Shown here one piece after another: positions 55,281-64,000 of a stretch of 64,000 nt of DNA. Source of the stretch: Burkholderia sp. BCC1644. GTDB lineage: Bacteria; Pseudomonadota; Gammaproteobacteria; Burkholderiales; Burkholderiaceae. The stretch lies in NCBI RefSeq assembly GCF_902833225.1, contig NZ_CADFEI010000005.1, positions 124,001 through 188,000 of the forward strand. Direction: 5' to 3'. Each line of letters opens with the position of its first letter. Position 1 is the stretch's first letter. Below the pieces are notes generated by a model that worked only from the letters and a program-made list of their open reading frames with translations, was not told the DNA's origin and searched no databases. Position numbers and translations under genes: made by a program.

Positions 55281-55321
55281 GGGTTATCCCCAGATTATGT
55301 TGACAGCCCTGTTGATAACCC
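55281..55321. other. Inverted repeat with two DnaA-box-like 9-mers
   Basis: GGGTTATC (55281-55288) and GATAACCC (55314-55321) are inverted repeats. They include TTATCCCCA (55284-55292) and, on the minus strand, TTATCAACA (55310-55318), each one base away from a consensus DnaA box. A TTGACA (55299-55304) lies between but has no -10. A role as an operator or DnaA site is only possible. Confidence 0.3.
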
Positions 55322-55395
55322 GCCGGACAAGCACGCAAGTGGTTGAGCGCGCAGCGTTTTGCACGCGCGAAGGTCGATCGTCACGAAATGGGCAG

Positions 55396-55860
55396 ATGCG
55401 GCGGCCATGGGCCTCAACGTGGCCTCCCCGCGCGCGGGCGGTGATCGGCGCCGCGGCGATCGCGCTGCTCGCCGGTTGCGCCGTGCCGCCCTCACCCGTC
55501 GCCGGCGCGGCGCCGGCCTGCACGCAGCCGGGCGAGAACCGCATGCTGCAGGCCGACCTGCTGTTCGGGCGCGACATCGCGGGGCACGGCTCCGTCACCG
55601 ACGCGGAACGCGCGGCGTTCCTCGCCGACACGGTCACGCCGCGTTTTCCCGACGGCCTGACCTACTGGGATACACACGGCCAATGGCGCGATCGCACGAC
55701 CGGCGGGATCACGCGCGAGGACAGCTTCGTGATCCGTATCATCGCCGACGATACGCCCGACACGCGCGTGCGGCTCGCCGCGATCCGCAAGGCCTATATG
55801 GAGCGGTTTCATCAGGAATCGGTCGGCATGACGGTCGTGCCGGCCTGCGCGTCATTCTGA
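55396..55860 (+). CDS. DUF3574 family lipoprotein
   Basis: A 154-residue protein with an arginine-rich start and a lipobox LLAGC near residue 28, so it should be lipid-anchored in the envelope. The DUF3574 core shows as LLFGRDIAGHG, TVTPRFPDGLTYWDTHGQWR and the acidic strand that follows. Function is unknown. The ATG at 55396 is chosen so that a short signal peptide leads to the lipobox; the open upstream frame has no such logic. It is the last chromosome-like gene before the AT-rich bacteriocin locus. Confidence 0.78.
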   Translation: MRRPWASTWPPRARAVIGAAAIALLAGCAVPPSPVAGAAPACTQPGENRMLQADLLFGRDIAGHGSVTDAERAAFLADTVTPRFPDGLTYWDTHGQWRDRTTGGITREDSFVIRIIADDTPDTRVRLAAIRKAYMERFHQESVGMTVVPACASF

Positions 55861-56088
55861 TTCCACCGCTCCGGTCTCGAAAATGCGTGACGATTACTGA
55901 CGCCCAGCCGCGTACTACGCAGAAAGCAACTGCGATATTGAACCAACTCACCAGTAAGCGCGGGCCAGCGGATGTCACGCGTGCACTCGGACACGCTCGT
56001 GTGCCGCGAAGCCAAGGAATCGACGTCGCCAAAGCGCGGTAATTGCCGACGCCAAAGCGCACCTGAATTCTGAGATAAATCAGCAATG
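55861..56088. other. Non-coding stretch at the left edge of the bacteriocin locus
   Basis: No convincing gene lies here. Base composition changes from GC-rich to AT-rich towards the right. GCCAAAGCGC occurs twice (near 56029 and 56051). No insertion-sequence end, integrase or tRNA is visible, so the boundary of the suspected transfer is not marked by a known element. Confidence 0.5.
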
Positions 56089-56117
56089 TTGACACAAATG
56101 CAAATGAGATGCATTAT
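56089..56117 (+). promoter_or_regulatory. Sigma-70 promoter of the bacteriocin precursor gene
   Basis: A perfect -35 TTGACA (56089-56094) is followed after 17 bases by CATTAT (56112-56117). Transcription would start near 56124, leaving a leader of about 60 bases with a GGAG ribosome site nine bases before the ATG at 56184. It is the best promoter in the window. Confidence 0.75.
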
Positions 56118-56118
56118 C
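56100..56118 (+). promoter_or_regulatory. Candidate Fur box overlapping the bacteriocin promoter
   Basis: GCAAATGAGATGCATTATC matches 14 of 19 positions of the canonical Fur box GATAATGATAATCATTATC. It covers the spacer and the -10 hexamer, where a bound repressor would block RNA polymerase. Colicin V/microcin V genes are known to be Fur-repressed, so iron control would be in character. Fur binding here is inference from the match. Confidence 0.5.
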
Positions 56119-56183
56119 GTTTGCGTCGATTACGTTTTAACGTGACCGACACTTCCATCAATTTAAAATTGGAGTCCTGAGCA

Positions 56184-56516
56184 ATGAAAGTATTGAGTAA
56201 TCAGGAAGTGATGAAAGTATCGGGGGCCGGTCTTGCGGGGACCGTGGCTGGCGGCGTAGCCGGAACCGTGGCCGGCCAATATATAGGTGCGGAAGTCGGT
56301 GCTGGAATTGGCGCTGCGGCTGGATCCATCGTTCCAGGAGTCGGCACGGTGGGCGGAGCGATTATCGGCGGCGCAGTCGGCACGTTATACGGCCCGACTG
56401 TCGGTGGATTGACCAGCGCCTACGTACTCGACCGTATTCAAGAGTACGGTTGGTCGTACTTTTTCCCTCGCGGCGTCTCGTTTGAGCAGCTGTGGGAAGC
56501 GACGAGCAGCCTGTAG
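56184..56516 (+). CDS. Class II microcin-like bacteriocin precursor with double-glycine-type leader
   Basis: A 110-residue precursor. Residues 1-15 (MKVLSNQEVMKVSGA) fit the C39-peptidase leader pattern exactly: Leu at -12, Glu at -8, Val at -7 and -4, Gly-Ala at -2/-1. Cleavage after Ala15 would release a 95-residue peptide. Its first 60 residues are glycine/alanine-rich with repeated GxxxG spacing (AGTVAGGVAGTVAGQYIG, GAGIGAAAG, GGAIIGGAVG), able to form packed membrane helices; the last 35 are aromatic and charged, ending QLWEATSSL. There are no cysteines. The GQYIG...GIGAAAG stretch recalls microcin V, but overall the sequence is not one I recognise. It has the strongest ribosome site of the locus. 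Confidence 0.85.
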   Translation: MKVLSNQEVMKVSGAGLAGTVAGGVAGTVAGQYIGAEVGAGIGAAAGSIVPGVGTVGGAIIGGAVGTLYGPTVGGLTSAYVLDRIQEYGWSYFFPRGVSFEQLWEATSSL

Positions 56517-56594
56517 TTGATAGAAATAAGCCGATTCCCAGAAAAATTTAGCGGAATCTCGCCGCAATAATTCAATTATTATTTTCAATATCTC

Positions 56595-56972
56595 ATGCTG
56601 ATCCCTGTCAGGCGCTTTCTCGAGGTGACCATTGCGCGTCTGTTCGCCGCGCAGTTAGTGAGTATTGTTGCATTCTTGATGCTTGCTCAGAATCGAGCCG
56701 CTGAATATCTCGTGCTCTGTGCGACTTGTTTTGTCGGGGCATTCATTGTCGGGCGCCTGACCCGCATCTGCGGGCGATCCGGTTACGATCGATTGCCCTA
56801 TTATCCGCGTTGGCTCTCAATGCAGGCAGTCATCCTCAATCTTGGGTTATCACTGATTGCCTTGGCCACTGGTCGGAACGGATGGATATGCGCTGTCACG
56901 CTTCCCAGCATTCTCGGCCTTGTTTGCAGCGACTATCTTTACTTGCGGCTTCAGAACCGGCCAAAGCGCTAA
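56595..56972 (+). CDS. Four-helix membrane protein, candidate bacteriocin immunity protein
   Basis: A 125-residue protein with hydrophobic helices at about 9-30, 35-55, 76-92 and 95-115 and a basic loop near 56-74 (RLTRICGRSGYDRLPYYPR). It lies directly after the precursor gene and before the exporter genes, the usual place for immunity. It is larger than the immunity protein of microcin V and I do not recognise its family, so the role is inferred from position and topology. No ribosome site is evident; an AT-only palindrome (56566-56580) lies 14 bases before its ATG. Composition is AT-rich like its neighbours. Confidence 0.6.
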   Translation: MLIPVRRFLEVTIARLFAAQLVSIVAFLMLAQNRAAEYLVLCATCFVGAFIVGRLTRICGRSGYDRLPYYPRWLSMQAVILNLGLSLIALATGRNGWICAVTLPSILGLVCSDYLYLRLQNRPKR

Positions 56973-57152
56973 CTGCACGTGCGAACACAGAACTCTCGAC
57001 GATGAGAATTGTCTCGAGTCACACTGACAAGCATTGAATAATAACGAGCAAAAAGGGAAAGTAGCACATAGCGACAACGCGCTGGAAAGTCGAATTACCG
57101 ATTGCCTCGTCAAACTCAAAGTAATCCAGCTTCGATAATTTTCTAGTTGATC

Positions 57153-58415
57153 ATGTTGATTCCGCAATCGCTCTTTCGCACGGAGGCTGAGCAAGCCCAA
57201 CGCGCGCCTATGCTCGGGAAGATTTTACTGGTACGCCCACTGTCATTCGCTTTCCTGACATGCGCAGCGGGAAGCATGGCACTTTGCGTCATAGCGTTGT
57301 TCCTGCTGTGCAATTACACACGGCGTACCACGGTCGAGGGCGTAGTGATGCCCGATACGGGACTCGTCAAAGTCTATGCGCAGCAGCCCGGCATCGTTCT
57401 GCGCAAGGCCATCATCGAAGGTCAACACGTAACGCGTGGAACGGTGCTCTATACGGTGTCCACCGACCTACAGAGCGCCGCCGGAGGGCGCACGCAGGCC
57501 GCACTGATCAAGCAGGCACTCCAGCGCAAGACATCGCTGCTGCAGGAAATCGACAAAACCCGAGTATTGCAGCAGGACGCTCGAGAAACGCTGCAAGCGA
57601 AACTATCCAGCTTGGGCGCTGAACTCGCGCGCGTAGACGCACAGCTAACCAGCCAACGTGAGCGAACAGCCATCGCTGCCGATGGTGTTACTCGCTATCG
57701 GCGTCTGCTCGCACTGGACTACATCTCGACGGACCAGTTCCAGCAGCGCCAAACCGAGCACCTTGATCAGAAGTCGAGGCTGCTCGGCCTGCAGCGCGAG
57801 CGCGCGAACATATCACAAGCGCTCAAAGAATCCGAGAGCGAACTCTCGGGCCCTGCATTCAAGCAACAGAATCAGCTCTCGCCACTTGAGCGCAACGTAA
57901 TCGACGTTGATCAAGCTCTGATCGAAAACGAAGCGCGGCGCGAACTGGCGGTAACAGCGCCCGAGACCGGCGTACTCACTGCTGTGATCGCTGAGCCTGG
58001 TCAGACGATCGATACGGCGCACCCCGCGGCGAGCATCGTGCCGAACGGCGCGCGCTGGCAAGTTCACCTGTTCGTGCCAAGCGCCGCTGTTGGCTTTGTG
58101 CACGTCGGCGATTCAGTACGAGTCCGGTACCAAGCCTATCCATACCAGAAATTCGGCCAGTATCGTGCGCACGTGACATCCATCGCGCGTACGGCACTAT
58201 CCCCCGCCGAATTCGCAACAAGCGGAGGCCCCACGAATCGTGATGGCACATTCTATCGAATCACCGCCGCCCTTGACGCGCAAACCGTCACCGCGTATGG
58301 CAAGCCGCAGCCTTTGCAGGCTGGCATGACGCTGCAAGCCGACATCTTGCAAGAACGTCGCCGCCTGTATGAATGGGTTCTCGAACCACTCTATAGCTTA
58401 ACCGGTAAACTCTGA
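57153..58415 (+). CDS. HlyD/CvaA-type periplasmic adaptor of a bacteriocin exporter
   Basis: A 420-residue membrane-fusion protein. One transmembrane helix (about 30-55) is followed by a beta strand TTVEGVVMPDTGLVKVYAQQ, a long coiled-coil hairpin (about 110-235), the lipoyl-type return ELAVTAPETGVLTAV, and a beta-barrel region to the end. It links the inner-membrane ABC exporter with the outer-membrane channel. An ATG at 57153 is used; a TTG two codons earlier is possible. About 180 bases separate it from the immunity candidate; this gap contains a weaker Fur-like sequence (GATGAGAATTGTCTC, near 57000) and no strong promoter. The next gene starts 13 bases after its stop. Confidence 0.88.
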   Translation: MLIPQSLFRTEAEQAQRAPMLGKILLVRPLSFAFLTCAAGSMALCVIALFLLCNYTRRTTVEGVVMPDTGLVKVYAQQPGIVLRKAIIEGQHVTRGTVLYTVSTDLQSAAGGRTQAALIKQALQRKTSLLQEIDKTRVLQQDARETLQAKLSSLGAELARVDAQLTSQRERTAIAADGVTRYRRLLALDYISTDQFQQRQTEHLDQKSRLLGLQRERANISQALKESESELSGPAFKQQNQLSPLERNVIDVDQALIENEARRELAVTAPETGVLTAVIAEPGQTIDTAHPAASIVPNGARWQVHLFVPSAAVGFVHVGDSVRVRYQAYPYQKFGQYRAHVTSIARTALSPAEFATSGGPTNRDGTFYRITAALDAQTVTAYGKPQPLQAGMTLQADILQERRRLYEWVLEPLYSLTGKL

Positions 58416-58428
58416 TTCCACTGCTTTT

Positions 58429-60582
58429 ATGTTCTTTCCAGACCGTCTTTCACTCGGCATCCGAAGCAAATTGCCGATGCTACTGCAGACAGAAGCGGCC
58501 GAGTGCGGGCTCGCATGCCTCGCGATGATTTCGGGTTACCACGGACACCACGTCGATCTCGCAACGCTTCGCAGCCGCTTCCCGGTGTCGCTCAAGGGAA
58601 CAGCGCTCTCGCGCGTGATCGAGGTTGCTCATCGGCTCGATCTCGGCACTCGTGCGCTAAAACTCGATCTCGACCAGCTTGGGCAACTGCGCATGCCGTG
58701 CATCCTCCATTGGGAATTCAATCACTTCGTTGTATTGAAGGAAGTAACTACCAAACGAGCAGTAGTCTATGATCCGGCACACGGAATTCGTCGCTTACCG
58801 CTCACCGTCCTTTCGCGCTCGTTCACCGGCGTCGCGTTAGAGCTATGGCCAACGAGTGCTTTTAAACCACTTGAAGCAGCGCCTGCAGTCAAACTGCGCT
58901 CGCTGATGGGGCCAGTGTCGGGATTATCTCGCTCGCTCGGCCAAGTACTCGTGCTTGCGCTTGTACTCGAGGTTTTCGCACTGATACAACCGTTCTTTCT
59001 GCAATGGGTTATCGATGAAGTAATCGTCAGCACCGATCGCGATCTTCTCACTGTCCTTGCACTCGGTTTCGGTCTTCTGTTGCTGATGCAACAAGCGACA
59101 AGTGCAATCCGCGCATGGGCGTTGATGTACTTCGGCACGACCCTCAACGTCCAGTGGCGTGCGAATGTGTTCAGCCACCTGCTGAGCCTGCCGGTGCGCT
59201 ACTTCGAACGACGCCATTTAGGCGACGTCGTGTCGCGCTTCGGTGCAATCGATACGATCCAGCAAACCCTGACCACATCGTTCCTGAGCGCCGTGATTGA
59301 TGGTCTGATGACGATAGTTACTCTCGTGATGATGTTTGTCTACAGTCGTATGCTGGGCTGCATCGCGCTTGCCGCAATGGCGCTGTATGCGTTATTGCGC
59401 TGGCTCTGGTATCAGCCGCTACGGCGAGCGACAGTCGAACAGATCGTGCATGCCGCCAAACAGCAAAGCCACTTCCTTGAGACCGTACGCGGCGTAAAGA
59501 CAATCAAACTATTCAACCGACAGGAGGAGCGCCGAGCGAGTTGGCTGTCTCTGCTGGTCGAACAAATTAATGCCGGTTTGCACATACAGAAGCTGCAGTT
59601 ACTTTACCAGCAACTTAACGGGTTGCTGTTCGGCATCGAAGGCATCCTGATTGTCTGGCTTGGTGCACGGATGGTAATTGACGGCCAGTTCACGGTCGGT
59701 GTACTCATAGCATTCAATGCGTACAAAGGGCAATTCGACAGTCGCATCGGCGGCCTAATCGACAAGTATTACGAAATCAAAATGCTGCAGTTGCAGGGAG
59801 AGAGGCTCGCCGATATCGTGTTCGAGAAGCCCGAGAGCGACGCAAACCTGCGCGACGTACACGGCGAGACAGACGATGTTGCAGCCAGCATTGAATTCGC
59901 TGCGGTCGGTTTTCGTTACGCAGATGGTGAGCACGCCGTGCTCGATTGTGTATCGTTCGGGATTTCACCAGGCGAGTCAGTCGCACTGATCGGACCATCA
60001 GGCTGTGGCAAAACCACACTCGTCAATGTGCTACTCGGTGTGCTCACCCCAACCGCCGGCAGCATACGAATCGGTGGCGTCGAAATTAATCGACTCGGCA
60101 CAAATCGACTGCGTGCGCTGATCGGAACCGTGCTTCAGGACGATGTGCTGTTTGCCGGCTCTATCCGTGACAACATCAGTTTCTTCGATCCAAATACCGA
60201 TATACAGTGGGTTGTCGAATGCGCACGGCTCGCCGCAATGCATGATGACATCGTGGCAATGCCGATGGGATACAACACCTTGGTCGGCGACATGGGTACT
60301 GTGCTGTCGGGTGGTCAGAAGCAGCGCGTATTGCTGGCGCGAGCGCTGTACAAACGGCCCAAGATTCTAGTACTCGACGAGGCAACGAGCCATCTGGATA
60401 TTCAGCGCGAACGACAGGTCAATGCCGCTGTCAGTGCATTGAAGATGACTCGTGTGATCATCGCGCACCGGCCAGAAACCATCGAGTCAGCCGCGCGTGT
60501 GGTGATGCTGCACGGTGGCCGGGTCGTTCTCGATCAGCCGACAATTGACAACGCAGTCACCGAACCGCAAGCAGGCCGATGA
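58429..60582 (+). CDS. Bacteriocin ABC exporter with N-terminal C39 peptidase domain (CvaB-like)
   Basis: A 717-residue peptidase-containing ATP-binding transporter. The C39 protease domain has Gln20, Cys26 (AAECGLACLAM), His99 (FNHFVVL) and Asp115 (VYDPAHG). Six membrane helices follow (about 165-440), then the ATPase with Walker A GPSGCGKT (522-529), LSGGQKQ from 626 and Walker B ILVLDEAT (646-653). All catalytic residues are intact, so it should both cut the leader of the precursor at 56184-56516 and export the peptide. The ATG has no ribosome site; translation is probably coupled to the adaptor gene. The last four bases overlap the next start (ATGA). Confidence 0.95.
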   Translation: MFFPDRLSLGIRSKLPMLLQTEAAECGLACLAMISGYHGHHVDLATLRSRFPVSLKGTALSRVIEVAHRLDLGTRALKLDLDQLGQLRMPCILHWEFNHFVVLKEVTTKRAVVYDPAHGIRRLPLTVLSRSFTGVALELWPTSAFKPLEAAPAVKLRSLMGPVSGLSRSLGQVLVLALVLEVFALIQPFFLQWVIDEVIVSTDRDLLTVLALGFGLLLLMQQATSAIRAWALMYFGTTLNVQWRANVFSHLLSLPVRYFERRHLGDVVSRFGAIDTIQQTLTTSFLSAVIDGLMTIVTLVMMFVYSRMLGCIALAAMALYALLRWLWYQPLRRATVEQIVHAAKQQSHFLETVRGVKTIKLFNRQEERRASWLSLLVEQINAGLHIQKLQLLYQQLNGLLFGIEGILIVWLGARMVIDGQFTVGVLIAFNAYKGQFDSRIGGLIDKYYEIKMLQLQGERLADIVFEKPESDANLRDVHGETDDVAASIEFAAVGFRYADGEHAVLDCVSFGISPGESVALIGPSGCGKTTLVNVLLGVLTPTAGSIRIGGVEINRLGTNRLRALIGTVLQDDVLFAGSIRDNISFFDPNTDIQWVVECARLAAMHDDIVAMPMGYNTLVGDMGTVLSGGQKQRVLLARALYKRPKILVLDEATSHLDIQRERQVNAAVSALKMTRVIIAHRPETIESAARVVMLHGGRVVLDQPTIDNAVTEPQAGR

Positions 60583-62024
60583 AGCTCGTCGTCTACTTAA
60601 CCATTTCGGCCGCCACCCTGACGACGGCTCTTCGAACCGATGCACAGGTACTCGACGTGTTCCGCATGCACCCCGCCGTGTCCGCGACGCCCACCGGAAC
60701 GTTACTGCGCGATACCACGTGTCGACAATCGCGGAATACACGTCCGCTCGAACTCGACGACGCGGTGCTGTACGCGATCTGTACAAACCCGCAGGCACGC
60801 CGAGCATGGAACGACGCGCGTGCGCAAGCCGCAGCGCTAGGCATTGCCGATGCCGCATACCTGCCTTTGCTGAACGCGACGGCAGGCATAGAGCGCAATA
60901 CACTGTCGACTACCTACAATTACAGCGCCTTCGGCGCCGGTTCGAGAAACCAGTCACAGAACTCATCGAGTCAATTTGGAAGACTCAACCTGAGTTGGAT
61001 ATTGTTCGATTTCGGCAAACGCGGCGCCGCTCGACGCCAGGCGCAGGCTTTACTTGCGGCCGCGAACGCGACGCACGACGAGACGCTGCAAGTGGTGTTC
61101 TTCAATACGGCTCAGGCATTCTATGCGCTACGTGATGCACAGGCGTCACTCGACTCTGCACTGCAAACAGAGACGATTGCACACCAAACCCTGATCGAAG
61201 CGACTGCCAAACACCAGGCCGGCGCCGGCACGCTCGCCGACGAGTTGCAAGCGCGCACCAGTTATCGACGTGCGTTGCTTGATCGCGTCAGCTCGGAGGG
61301 CGAAGTGCGCATTATGACGGGAGCTCTTGCTGTCGCGATCGGGTTGGACGCAAACACCACCGTACAGGTCACGCCTCAGGAACCCGATATCGCGGATAAG
61401 CCAACCGAAATCGAGGCCACGATCGATCGGCTGATCGAGGAAGCCAAACAGCAGCACCCAAAGCTGATTGCCGCACGCGCGAAGCTCGACGCAGCGCGTG
61501 CCAGCATCGACGCTGCCCGCGCGCTGGGGCGGCCCGCCATCTCACTCGTCGGCAGCATCACACAAAACAATCCGTCGTACCAGCAACAACCACAATCGGC
61601 CCCGATCATGCACAGTCGTGGCAGCTCGGTCGGGATACAGATGACAATCCCGCTGTTCGAGGGTTTCGCATTCGGATACCGAATCGAACAAGCGCAAGCG
61701 CAAGCCGATGCGCAGGAAGCTGCCTTGCGCAACGTCGAACTCCAGGCGTCGCTGGACGTATGGAAGAGCTATCACGGCCTACAAGCCGATGCTACCAATC
61801 TCGCGAACTCGCAGAATCTGCTGGAAGATGCACAACAGGCGCTCGATATCGCGCGTGGTCGCTACAAGGAGGGGGTCGGGACGTTCACCGATATGCTTGT
61901 CGCCCAAACCGCGCTTGCCGATGCACAAAAGCAGCGCGTGTTAGCCAAATCAAAGTGGCGCTCCACGCGCCTCGGTCTAGCAGCGAGCCTCGGTAAGCTT
62001 GACCTGCAGGATACTAATCCATAA
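60579..62024 (+). CDS. TolC-family outer-membrane channel of the bacteriocin exporter
   Basis: A 481-residue outer-membrane efflux protein. A signal peptide (about 1-22) is followed by two OEP repeats rich in long coiled coils (about 85-270 and 290-470), with the typical LNLSWILFDFGKRGAARRQA and VGIQMTIPLFEGFAFGYRI strands. The start overlaps the exporter stop, so it belongs to the same operon. Microcin V uses the host TolC; here the locus carries its own channel. Composition is intermediate between the AT-rich precursor region and the chromosome. Confidence 0.9.
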   Translation: MKLVVYLTISAATLTTALRTDAQVLDVFRMHPAVSATPTGTLLRDTTCRQSRNTRPLELDDAVLYAICTNPQARRAWNDARAQAAALGIADAAYLPLLNATAGIERNTLSTTYNYSAFGAGSRNQSQNSSSQFGRLNLSWILFDFGKRGAARRQAQALLAAANATHDETLQVVFFNTAQAFYALRDAQASLDSALQTETIAHQTLIEATAKHQAGAGTLADELQARTSYRRALLDRVSSEGEVRIMTGALAVAIGLDANTTVQVTPQEPDIADKPTEIEATIDRLIEEAKQQHPKLIAARAKLDAARASIDAARALGRPAISLVGSITQNNPSYQQQPQSAPIMHSRGSSVGIQMTIPLFEGFAFGYRIEQAQAQADAQEAALRNVELQASLDVWKSYHGLQADATNLANSQNLLEDAQQALDIARGRYKEGVGTFTDMLVAQTALADAQKQRVLAKSKWRSTRLGLAASLGKLDLQDTNP

Positions 62025-62053
62025 CTACAGCTTCATTCTTTTCCGCAACGCAC

Positions 62054-62081
62054 AAAAAAACGGGCGCCCGAAGGCGCCCGT
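62054..62081 (-). terminator. Terminator of mrcA
   Basis: On the minus strand ACGGGCGCC, loop TTCG, GGCGCCCGT and a run of Ts. It starts about 27 bases after the mrcA stop and separates it from the convergent bacteriocin operon. Confidence 0.9.
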
Positions 62082-62107
62082 CGCTTGTCTGAAGAACAGC
62101 GTACCGC

Positions 62108-64000
62108 TTACTTGTTCTCGAACATGTCCATGATCTGCTGCTTCTCCTGCGGCGTGACGGGCGGCGGCGCGAGCCCTGCCGCGCCGGCCGAACCCAGCGC
62201 GTCGTTCGCGCTGATCGCGTTCTCCGCCGGGTTGATGTCGACGTTCGCGACGAAGCCGTTGCCCGGCGTGCGATCGGCGTAGTACAGCTCGCCGTCGATC
62301 GAGGTCAGCCCGTCCGGCATCGGCATCTGCTGCTCGGGCACGCCGTTCAGCGCGGTGCGCATGTAGTTCACCCAGATCGGCAACGCGAGCTGCGCGCCGA
62401 ATTCGCGGCTGCCGAGGCTCTTCGGCTGGTCGAAGCCCATCCATGCGACCGCGACGAGCGACTGCTGGTAGCCGGCGAACCAGCCGTCCTTCGCGTCGTT
62501 CGTCGTACCCGTCTTGCCCTGCAGGTCGCTGCGGCCCAGTGCGTTGGTGCCTGCGCCCGTGCCGGCCGTCGCGACCGAATGCAGCAGGCTGTTCATCACG
62601 TACGCGTTGCGGCCTTCGATCGTGCGCGGCGCCGTGCCGCCCGCGATCACCGGCTGCGACTTCTGCAGCGGCTGGCCGCGTGCGTCGTCGACTTCGGCGA
62701 TCAGGTACGGATCGACCTTGTAGCCGCCGTTCGCGAACACCGCGTAGCCGGTCGCGAGCTGCAGCGGCGTCACGAGGCCCGCGCCGAGCGCCATCGGCAG
62801 GTACGGCGGCGTCTTCGCCGGATCGAAGCCGAAGCGCTGCGTCACGTACTGCTGCGCATACTGCGTGCCGATCGATGCGAGGATCCGGATCGACACGAGG
62901 TTCTTCGAACGCTGCAGGCCGGTGCGCATCGTCATCGGGCCGTCCGGCTGGTCGTCGTCCTTCGGCTCCCACGCGGTGCCGCCCGGCACGCTCGGCGGGA
63001 AGTACAGCGGCGCGTCGTTGATCATCGTCGCCGGCCCCATGCCCTTGTCGAGCGACGCCGAGTAGATGAACGGCTTGAACGACGAGCCCGGCTGCCGCCA
63101 CGCCTGCGTCACGTGGTTGAACTTGCTCTTGTTGAAGTCGAAGCCGCCGACGAGCGAGCGGATTGCACCGTCCTGCGGGGCAATCGCGACGAGCGCGCCT
63201 TCGACCTGCGGCAGCTGCACGACCTGCCAGCCCGTCTTGCCGTCCTTCAGCACGCGCACGACCGAGCCCGGCTTGATGCGCAGCGTATCGTTCGCGCGCG
63301 GGCTCAATGCGGCCGACACGAAGCGCAGCCCGGCCGGCCCGATCGTCGTGGTCGCGCCGCCGACGAACTGCACCTCGACCGCATTCGGCGACGCCGACAG
63401 CACGACCGCCGACTGCAGGTCGCCGTTGTCCGGGTGATCGGCGAGCGCATCGTCGATCGCCTCGTCGCGGTCGTCGCCGGCCGCGGGCAGCTGGATCGAT
63501 GCTTCCGGCCCACGATAGCCGTGGCGGCGCTCGTAGTCGAGAATGCCGCGACGCACGGCCTGGTACGCGGCTTCCTGGTCGGACGAGTTGATCGTCGTCG
63601 TGACGGTCAGCCCGCGCGTATAGGTTTCGTCCTTGTACTGCTGGTACATCATCTGCCGCACCATCTCGGCGACGTATTCGCCGTGCACCGCGTACTGGTT
63701 GCCCGGCGTGCGCACGTGGATCTCTTCCTTGATCGCTTCGTCGTACTGCGGCTGCGTGATGTAGCCGACCTCGAGCATGCGCTTCAGGATGTACTCCTGA
63801 CGCACCTTCGCGCGCTTCGGATTGACGACCGGGTTATACGCGGACGGCGCCTTCGGCAGCCCCGCGAGCATCGCCGCTTCAGCAAGCGTGATGTCCTTCA
63901 GGTCCTTGCCGAAATACACGCGTGCAGCGGCGGCGAAACCGTACGAACGCTGGCCGAGATAGATCTGGTTCATGTACAGCTCGAGGATCTGGTCCTTCGT
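62108..64000 (-). CDS. mrcA: Penicillin-binding protein 1A, C-terminal part (runs off the window)
   Basis: About 630 C-terminal residues of a class A penicillin-binding protein that polymerises and cross-links peptidoglycan. The visible part starts in the glycosyltransferase domain (KDQILELYMNQIYLGQRSYG) and includes the transpeptidase motifs SSFK (in QPGSSFKPFIYSAS), SKN (LQRSKNLVSIR) and KTGTTND. An OB-like insert lies between the two domains. The C terminus is glycine/proline-rich (GLAPPPVTPQEKQ). The start codon lies beyond position 64000. Confidence 0.94.
   Translation of the reverse strand, partial: TKDQILELYMNQIYLGQRSYGFAAAARVYFGKDLKDITLAEAAMLAGLPKAPSAYNPVVNPKRAKVRQEYILKRMLEVGYITQPQYDEAIKEEIHVRTPGNQYAVHGEYVAEMVRQMMYQQYKDETYTRGLTVTTTINSSDQEAAYQAVRRGILDYERRHGYRGPEASIQLPAAGDDRDEAIDDALADHPDNGDLQSAVVLSASPNAVEVQFVGGATTTIGPAGLRFVSAALSPRANDTLRIKPGSVVRVLKDGKTGWQVVQLPQVEGALVAIAPQDGAIRSLVGGFDFNKSKFNHVTQAWRQPGSSFKPFIYSASLDKGMGPATMINDAPLYFPPSVPGGTAWEPKDDDQPDGPMTMRTGLQRSKNLVSIRILASIGTQYAQQYVTQRFGFDPAKTPPYLPMALGAGLVTPLQLATGYAVFANGGYKVDPYLIAEVDDARGQPLQKSQPVIAGGTAPRTIEGRNAYVMNSLLHSVATAGTGAGTNALGRSDLQGKTGTTNDAKDGWFAGYQQSLVAVAWMGFDQPKSLGSREFGAQLALPIWVNYMRTALNGVPEQQMPMPDGLTSIDGELYYADRTPGNGFVANVDINPAENAISANDALGSAGAAGLAPPPVTPQEKQQIMDMFENK

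Follow-up and report, generated by a model that had tools for sequence, protein, structure and literature searches.

A putative C39-exported, glycine-zipper bacteriocin and its candidate immunity protein in a five-gene islet of Burkholderia sp. BCC1644

We analyzed a 64,000-nt stretch of the genome of Burkholderia sp. BCC1644 (GCF_902833225.1, contig NZ_CADFEI010000005.1, positions 124,001 to 188,000, forward strand; hereafter the window) and found in it five intact genes, all on the + strand, for a putative bacteriocin precursor, a 125-aa protein, an HlyD-type adaptor, a C39-peptidase ABC exporter and a TolC-type channel. This five-gene set is very probably a horizontally spread bacteriocin-immunity cassette. 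The precursor and its partner appear to represent two new families, one of peptides and one of immunity proteins, within a known kind of system, the C39-exported, glycine-rich bacteriocins. An initial annotation of this DNA had placed six parts, namely a promoter and the five genes, at 56089-62024; all six are present there, and its proposal of a complete bacteriocin-type gene set was borne out by gene content and motifs. The features are as follows (genomes, contigs and loci carry our labels G, C and L).

55873..62047 (approximate ends), ~6.2 kb: islet, delimited by blastn of the window against the loci of G104, G101 and G012 (L118, L119, L120)
56089..56117, + strand: sigma-70-like promoter, TTGACA-17-CATTAT, recognized from sequence and largely kept in G050
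56100..56118, + strand: Fur-like site GCAAATGAGATGCATTATC, 14/19 to the E. coli consensus, overlapping the promoter; from a consensus scan
56184..56516, + strand: putative bacteriocin precursor, 110 aa, leader 1-15, core 16-110; from open reading frame and residue analysis
56595..56972, + strand: candidate immunity protein, 125 aa, 3-4 hydrophobic segments; from linkage, hydropathy and an immunity-only locus
57153..58415, + strand: HlyD-type periplasmic adaptor (PF13437, 9e-15; TIGR01843, 6.2e-30, below its cut-off)
58429..60582, + strand: C39-peptidase ABC exporter (PF03412, E 3.3e-35; PF00664; PF00005), with Cys26, His99 and Asp115
60579..62024, + strand: TolC-type outer membrane channel (PF02321, E 5e-51)

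The precursor opens with a 15-residue leader of the canonical C39 type, MKVLSNQEVMKVSGA, which carries the hydrophobic residues V, V and L at positions -4, -7 and -12 and ends in GA. This agrees with the rule given for class II microcin leaders (15-18 aa, ending GG or GA, hydrophobic residues at -4, -7 and -12; PMC11494933, cited here, like the other papers, from excerpts) and with a second account in which such leaders may end in GG or GA (PMC9746304). The leader had been called a perfect C39-type leader, a description that is apt by these published rules, except that its end is GA and not GG. The 95-residue core (9182 Da) contains 24.2% Gly, compared with 21.8% for the whole precursor, and is built around two glycine zippers: eight glycines spaced i+4 over residues 19-47 and six with the same spacing over residues 54-74. 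Ser48-x-x-Pro51-Gly52 separates the two runs, and a mixed aromatic and charged tail, DRIQEYGWSYFFPRGVSFEQLWEATSSL, lies C-terminal to them. The summed zipper length was matched by none of 2000 composition shuffles of the core. Two zipper runs occur in all nine family members (7-8 and 6-8 Gly), and three other Burkholderia leader peptides tested had Gly runs of 3, of 6 and 4, and none at all. The natural reading of the two zippers would be a membrane hairpin.

The precursor and the partner gene are tightly linked. Profiles built from six precursor and six partner sequences were each run separately over 398 genomes of the family; because these searches scored a capped set of initial candidates in each genome, absences there are not proof. 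The precursor profile gave nine strong loci (at least 118 bits) in 8 of the 398 genomes, with the next match at 54.8 bits. Some match at E 1e-5 occurred in 56 genomes, and all those of 54.8 bits or less were set aside. Three of these weaker matches were inspected and not counted: two (L100, L101) are Gly-rich and zinc-ribbon-like by eye, and the third (L102) is a different leader peptide adjoining a split exporter. The partner profile identified ten loci, in the same eight genomes, and the partner directly follows the precursor on the same strand in nine of nine precursor loci. The pair was found in G396, G252 and G183 although these genomes contributed to neither profile. Identity of the partners to the window's protein falls as low as 15%, yet all ten have 124-129 residues and, with the threshold set to a mean hydropathy of 1.2, 3-4 hydrophobic segments. 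Compared with the copy on contig C20 of G050, both genes differ mostly by silent changes (simple counts on one pair: dS 0.19, dN 0.034 and ratio 0.17 for the precursor; dS 0.20, dN 0.040 and ratio 0.20 for the partner, where dS and dN are synonymous and nonsynonymous divergence); between G059 and G039 the partner ratio is 0.49, with few changes. Since the changes are mostly silent and the two genes recur together in other genomes, the precursor and partner genes are more than chance frames.

The best available evidence for an immunity role of the 125-aa protein is a natural locus that carries the partner without the precursor. To either side of a gap, this locus (G039:C2) matches the G059 locus at 94-96% identity. 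The 396 bp missing from it cover the precursor frame in full, together with the 2 bases that precede the frame and the 37 that follow its stop codon; the promoter, the Fur-like site and the partner gene are retained. The gap presumably reflects loss of the precursor, not gain elsewhere. Linkage, the immunity-only locus and loci with exporter stubs (below) support a bacteriocin-immunity pair, with the partner as the probable immunity protein. That role had been a guess in the initial annotation, and it is now backed by the immunity-only locus in another genome.

This partner-only locus is one of four natural states. The complete state is found in the window and in G396, where the same five genes stand in the same order with identities of 60% for the precursor, 31% for the partner, 73% for HlyD, 81% for the exporter and 67% for the channel, a comparison that points to a conserved exporter and a fast-diverging pair. 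G183 has the precursor, partner, HlyD, an insert of ~0.95 kb and the exporter, with no match to the outer membrane channel in the stretch; the insert (L142 11676-12619) contains frames that resemble transposase pieces by eye. In the second state the pair stands without an exporter. At the window's own chromosomal place, the sequence of G050:C20 continues for 17 codons into hlyD and then diverges, and in G252 residues 434-481 of the channel come soon after the partner, following what looks by eye like the start of hlyD. The hlyD gene breaks after ~17-20 codons in both G050 (L094 9428-9478) and G252 (L141 9894-9955), which belong to different genera; inspection of these two loci by eye revealed no repeat that would explain the shared break. 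A 39-residue HlyD-like fragment (43.6% identity; L097 9130-9246) upstream of the precursor on G039:C3 is perhaps an exporter remnant. For the pairs on G050:C7 and in G059 and G043, the stretches read contain no intact exporter, just distant ATPase matches in two of them; close exporters are encoded elsewhere in the genomes of G043 (84 and 83%), G050 (72 and 53%) and G039 (53%).

The fourth state is the empty site. The window's set sits between a DUF3574 gene and a penicillin-binding-protein gene on the opposite strand, which looks mrcA-like by eye and whose end borders the set. Blastn alignments of the window with G104, a genome of the same species, and with G101 and G012 end at 55872 and restart at 62040-62048; in these genomes the flanks lie 3-15 bases apart, with none of 55873-62039 between them. 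Since the islet is missing from all three, the five-gene set is an accessory insertion. The site was read in these three genomes and in G050. G+C content is 54-60% across the five genes versus 66% for the whole window. An Rfam scan of 55300-62200 returned no matches, and no leader-bearing frame was found in 56973-57152. The four states would represent producer, non-producing carrier, resistant and sensitive types, as a bacteriocin predicts.

The export machinery appears complete. The exporter has the catalytic Cys26, His99 and Asp115 together with Walker A, LSGGQ and Walker B motifs and aligns over its full length with the solved C39 peptidase-exporter 4RY2 (E 3e-97), so that the intact Cys/His/Asp protease site proposed earlier was confirmed. 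We place the HlyD start at the ATG at 57153, where the open reading frame list instead used the upstream TTG at 57147, and the start of the channel gene overlaps the exporter stop. An exporter of at least 72% identity is encoded in 24 of 65 genomes of the genus. Eleven such loci were fetched besides the window (L103-L113; exporters 72-84% identical to the window's), and all eleven encode HlyD, exporter and channel together in the window's order; eight have other precursors near the exporter, and the leader pattern recognized none in the remaining three. Cdz-like systems had moreover been predicted in B. cepacia already in 2017 (PMC5380434). Because the exporter is common in the genus, the adaptor and channel accompany it in every fetched locus and B. 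cepacia is a named carrier, the initial annotation's claim of an unusual setting in Burkholderia fails, and a dedicated outer membrane channel is not remarkable there. In the exporter tree, in which many forks are open, the three exporters adjoining this precursor family are not grouped together: those of the window and G396 fall within a supported set of eight that also holds exporters of other precursors, and that of G183 lies outside it.

Several arrangements of other leader peptides were noted beside C39 exporters. Tandem leader peptides of 76 and ~78 aa lie upstream of the exporter in three genomes (L107 12315-12919, L108 11562-12166, L109 11348-11952), a possible two-peptide system. In G035 (L102 9321-11418) a split exporter gene, with pieces matching query 1-471 and 485-697, adjoins two leader peptides, and in Shimwellia pseudoproteus (L047 3470-4049) a C39 exporter is accompanied by two adjacent peptides with GA leaders, 105 and 73 aa long.

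Sequences upstream of the precursor are consistent with iron control of the operon. When the 323-bp gap was shuffled 5000 times, the 14/19 score of the Fur-like site was reached 12 times. Within 150 bp upstream of the start, six of the nine family loci have Fur-like scores of 14, 14, 14, 13, 13 and 12, and the immunity-only locus scores 13; among nine other leader-peptide loci (eight of them from the L103-L113 set), none has a site of at least 12/19 within this distance (scores 8-11). A Fur site of B. cenocepacia has been published, with a 13/19 site at orbS reported as possibly functional (PMC4786211), the orbS promoter is repressed by Fur (PMC9023288), and microcin production is described as driven by low iron (PMC10233263). 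As a separate observation, a palindrome, CCAGATGGGnCATCTGG (with variants), lies ~20-45 bases before the leader-peptide starts in L103, L105, L107, L108, L109, L112 and L113. It was not seen in the window or L111, and it could be an operator or a hairpin.

From these features we infer killing, immunity, processing and iron control as follows. At low iron, Fur would leave the promoter and the operon would be read. The C39 domain would cut the leader after Gly14-Ala15, and HlyD, the exporter and the channel would push the 95-aa peptide out of the producer. On reaching related cells that lack the partner gene, its two glycine-zipper helices, with the Ser-x-x-Pro-Gly turn between them, may insert as a hairpin in the target inner membrane, where the inserted hairpins would oligomerize and collapse the membrane potential. 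In the producer, the 125-aa membrane protein would block the action of the peptide.

Among the exporters of experimentally tested systems that we encountered, the closest is McbB (54.5% identity to the window's exporter) of Moraxella catarrhalis mcbABCI (pLQ510, NC_011131), where mutants showed killing and immunity (PMC2761928). Like the window, mcbABCI combines an HlyD protein and ABC exporter with two small genes, for a leader peptide and for immunity. However, its exporter genes come first, the 9.3 kb read carry no annotated outer membrane channel gene, and McbC and McbI have no significant similarity to the window's pair. Microcin V of E. coli (cvaABC-cvi) shares the gene classes, a Gly-rich core and a canonical leader with the window, and its exporter CvaB is 41.7% identical. 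However, CvaC has one i+4 run of three glycines versus runs of eight and six in the window peptide, Cvi has no significant similarity to the partner, and no outer membrane channel gene is annotated in the 10 kb of microcin V DNA read. The relation to microcin V itself is weak, and we did not accept homology: the MccV family match (PF17508, E 0.028) scores 15.4 bits against a cut-off of 27, and the similarity to the CvaC core, reached by 10 of 2000 full shuffles, was equalled by 122 of 2000 shuffles that kept the G and A places. The exporters of the fetched Burkholderia loci are of the window's type, with HlyD and channel, but the eight with recognized peptides carry other precursors.

In terms of class, the window set has several features described for class IIa microcins: the leader MKVLSNQEVMKVSGA follows the leader rule, Gly content (21.8% whole, 24.2% core) lies within 12-26% and the core mass within 5-10 kDa, and a C39 exporter with Cys/His/Asp and a membrane fusion protein are encoded. 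An adjacent inner-membrane immunity protein of 51-216 aa is also expected there, for which the neighbor, at 125 aa with 3-4 hydrophobic segments and linked in 9/9 loci, is a candidate. The Ser/Gly-rich C-terminus that serves siderophore attachment in class IIb is not present in the precursor, whose tail is DRIQEYGWSYFFPRGVSFEQLWEATSSL. The peptide would act in the manner of class IIa microcins or of Cdz-like toxins, with membership in either group depending on activity.

The Cdz-like variant overlaps the cassette reading, with the same genes and membrane target, but with a peptide that aggregates on the producer surface and kills only by contact; we regard it as possible, though doubtful. The comparison is with the published description and rules for Cdz of Caulobacter crescentus and Cdz-like systems (PMC5380434). 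The 110-aa window precursor falls within the 60-151 aa given there, its leader ends in GA (GG, GA or GS in the rule), it has glycine zippers, and type I secretion genes lie within 10 kb; the Cdz immunity protein has three predicted transmembrane segments, near the 3-4 hydrophobic segments of the partner, and B. cepacia is among the named carriers. Cdz itself has two toxins, however. The Cdz-like rule asks for one or two zippers with no interruption by Pro or charge and for a short polar or charged C-terminus; the window's two runs are parted by Pro51, but Glu37 lies inside run 1 and Pro71 inside run 2, and the tail is mixed aromatic and charged. Fur-type control would also be nearer to microcin regulation (PMC10233263) than to the stationary-phase control of Cdz. 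Surface retention is not visible in sequence, so a diffusible, microcin V-like peptide would look the same here as a surface-held one.

Two further readings fit the data less well. One of them, improbable in our view, takes the peptide for a secreted signal of the double-glycine type or for a surface peptide, acting as a pheromone or in aggregation or adhesion, with the 125-aa protein as a sensor or accessory membrane protein. Pheromones also leave through C39 exporters, ComA being among the solved relatives of the window exporter, aggregation too is driven by glycine zippers (PMC5380434), and killing by the window peptide is a prediction. Against this reading, pheromones are generally smaller than a 95-aa zipper core, no regulator gene is among the five, the pair diverges faster than the exporter, and one locus holds the partner without the peptide, an arrangement needless for a sensor. 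That the window cassette is a decayed remnant, out of use, seems very unlikely: two other loci do have exporter stubs only, G039:C3 has an HlyD-like fragment beside its precursor and one locus has no precursor, but all five window frames are intact with complete motifs, and between species the pair changes mostly silently.

Returning to the bacteriocin-immunity cassette, several observations weigh against it. Activity, secretion and expression of the window peptide are predicted from sequence only. At a stricter hydropathy threshold of 1.6, the ten partners retain 1-4 segments. The AlphaFold model of the precursor is helical, but has a pLDDT (model confidence) of 52, and the two structure models (pLDDT 51 and 52) are unusable. 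Neither the precursor nor the partner is named by any family library searched (Pfam and TIGR-type scans). The pair may be unexported in G059, whose genome has no C39 match, and in G252, which has no exporter above 32% identity. As to iron, a second 14/19 Fur-like site occurs in the window when both strands are scanned, three of the nine family loci have no clear site (L095 10/19, L099 9/19, L142 10/19), the 12/19 score of L097 was equalled by 70 of 1000 shuffles, and the other-peptide locus L102 attains 12/19 when 300 bp are scanned.

The initial annotation did not recognize the peptide, and this agrees with the database and profile searches of both proteins that it had proposed. The precursor alone had no match among 5.8 billion proteins or in a plasmid collection, and its Pfam matches are all weak and below cut-off, including MccV and glycine-zipper families. 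Run against the same 5.8 billion proteins, the nine-member precursor alignment gave 23 matches at E ≤0.001 among 7997 candidates scored. Among these are four full-length relatives (B. multivorans, B. stagnalis, Paraburkholderia bonniea and one metagenome protein) and one 59-aa Burkholderia piece. The partner has one Pfam match (E 0.38), far below cut-off, and five close relatives (75-95%) from B. cepacia, B. metallica, B. cenocepacia, B. theae and one Burkholderia species. All named relatives of either protein are annotated as hypothetical, and no function is assigned to precursor or partner in the databases searched.

Most known small C39-exported bacteriocins come from enteric bacteria, and the sources cited name few tested cases elsewhere (M. 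catarrhalis, Caulobacter). The chances seem about even that the present loci represent a Burkholderia/Paraburkholderia family with two back-to-back strict zippers, forming a membrane hairpin, and iron control, in which an exchangeable precursor-immunity module moves across exporter lineages and genomes sort into complete, exporter-less, immunity-only and empty-site types. The pair offers a peptide of unusually regular architecture and a partner gene for which a natural immunity-only locus supports the probable role in immunity. As natural genomes exist in each of the four states, activity, immunity and spectrum could be tested with existing isolates.

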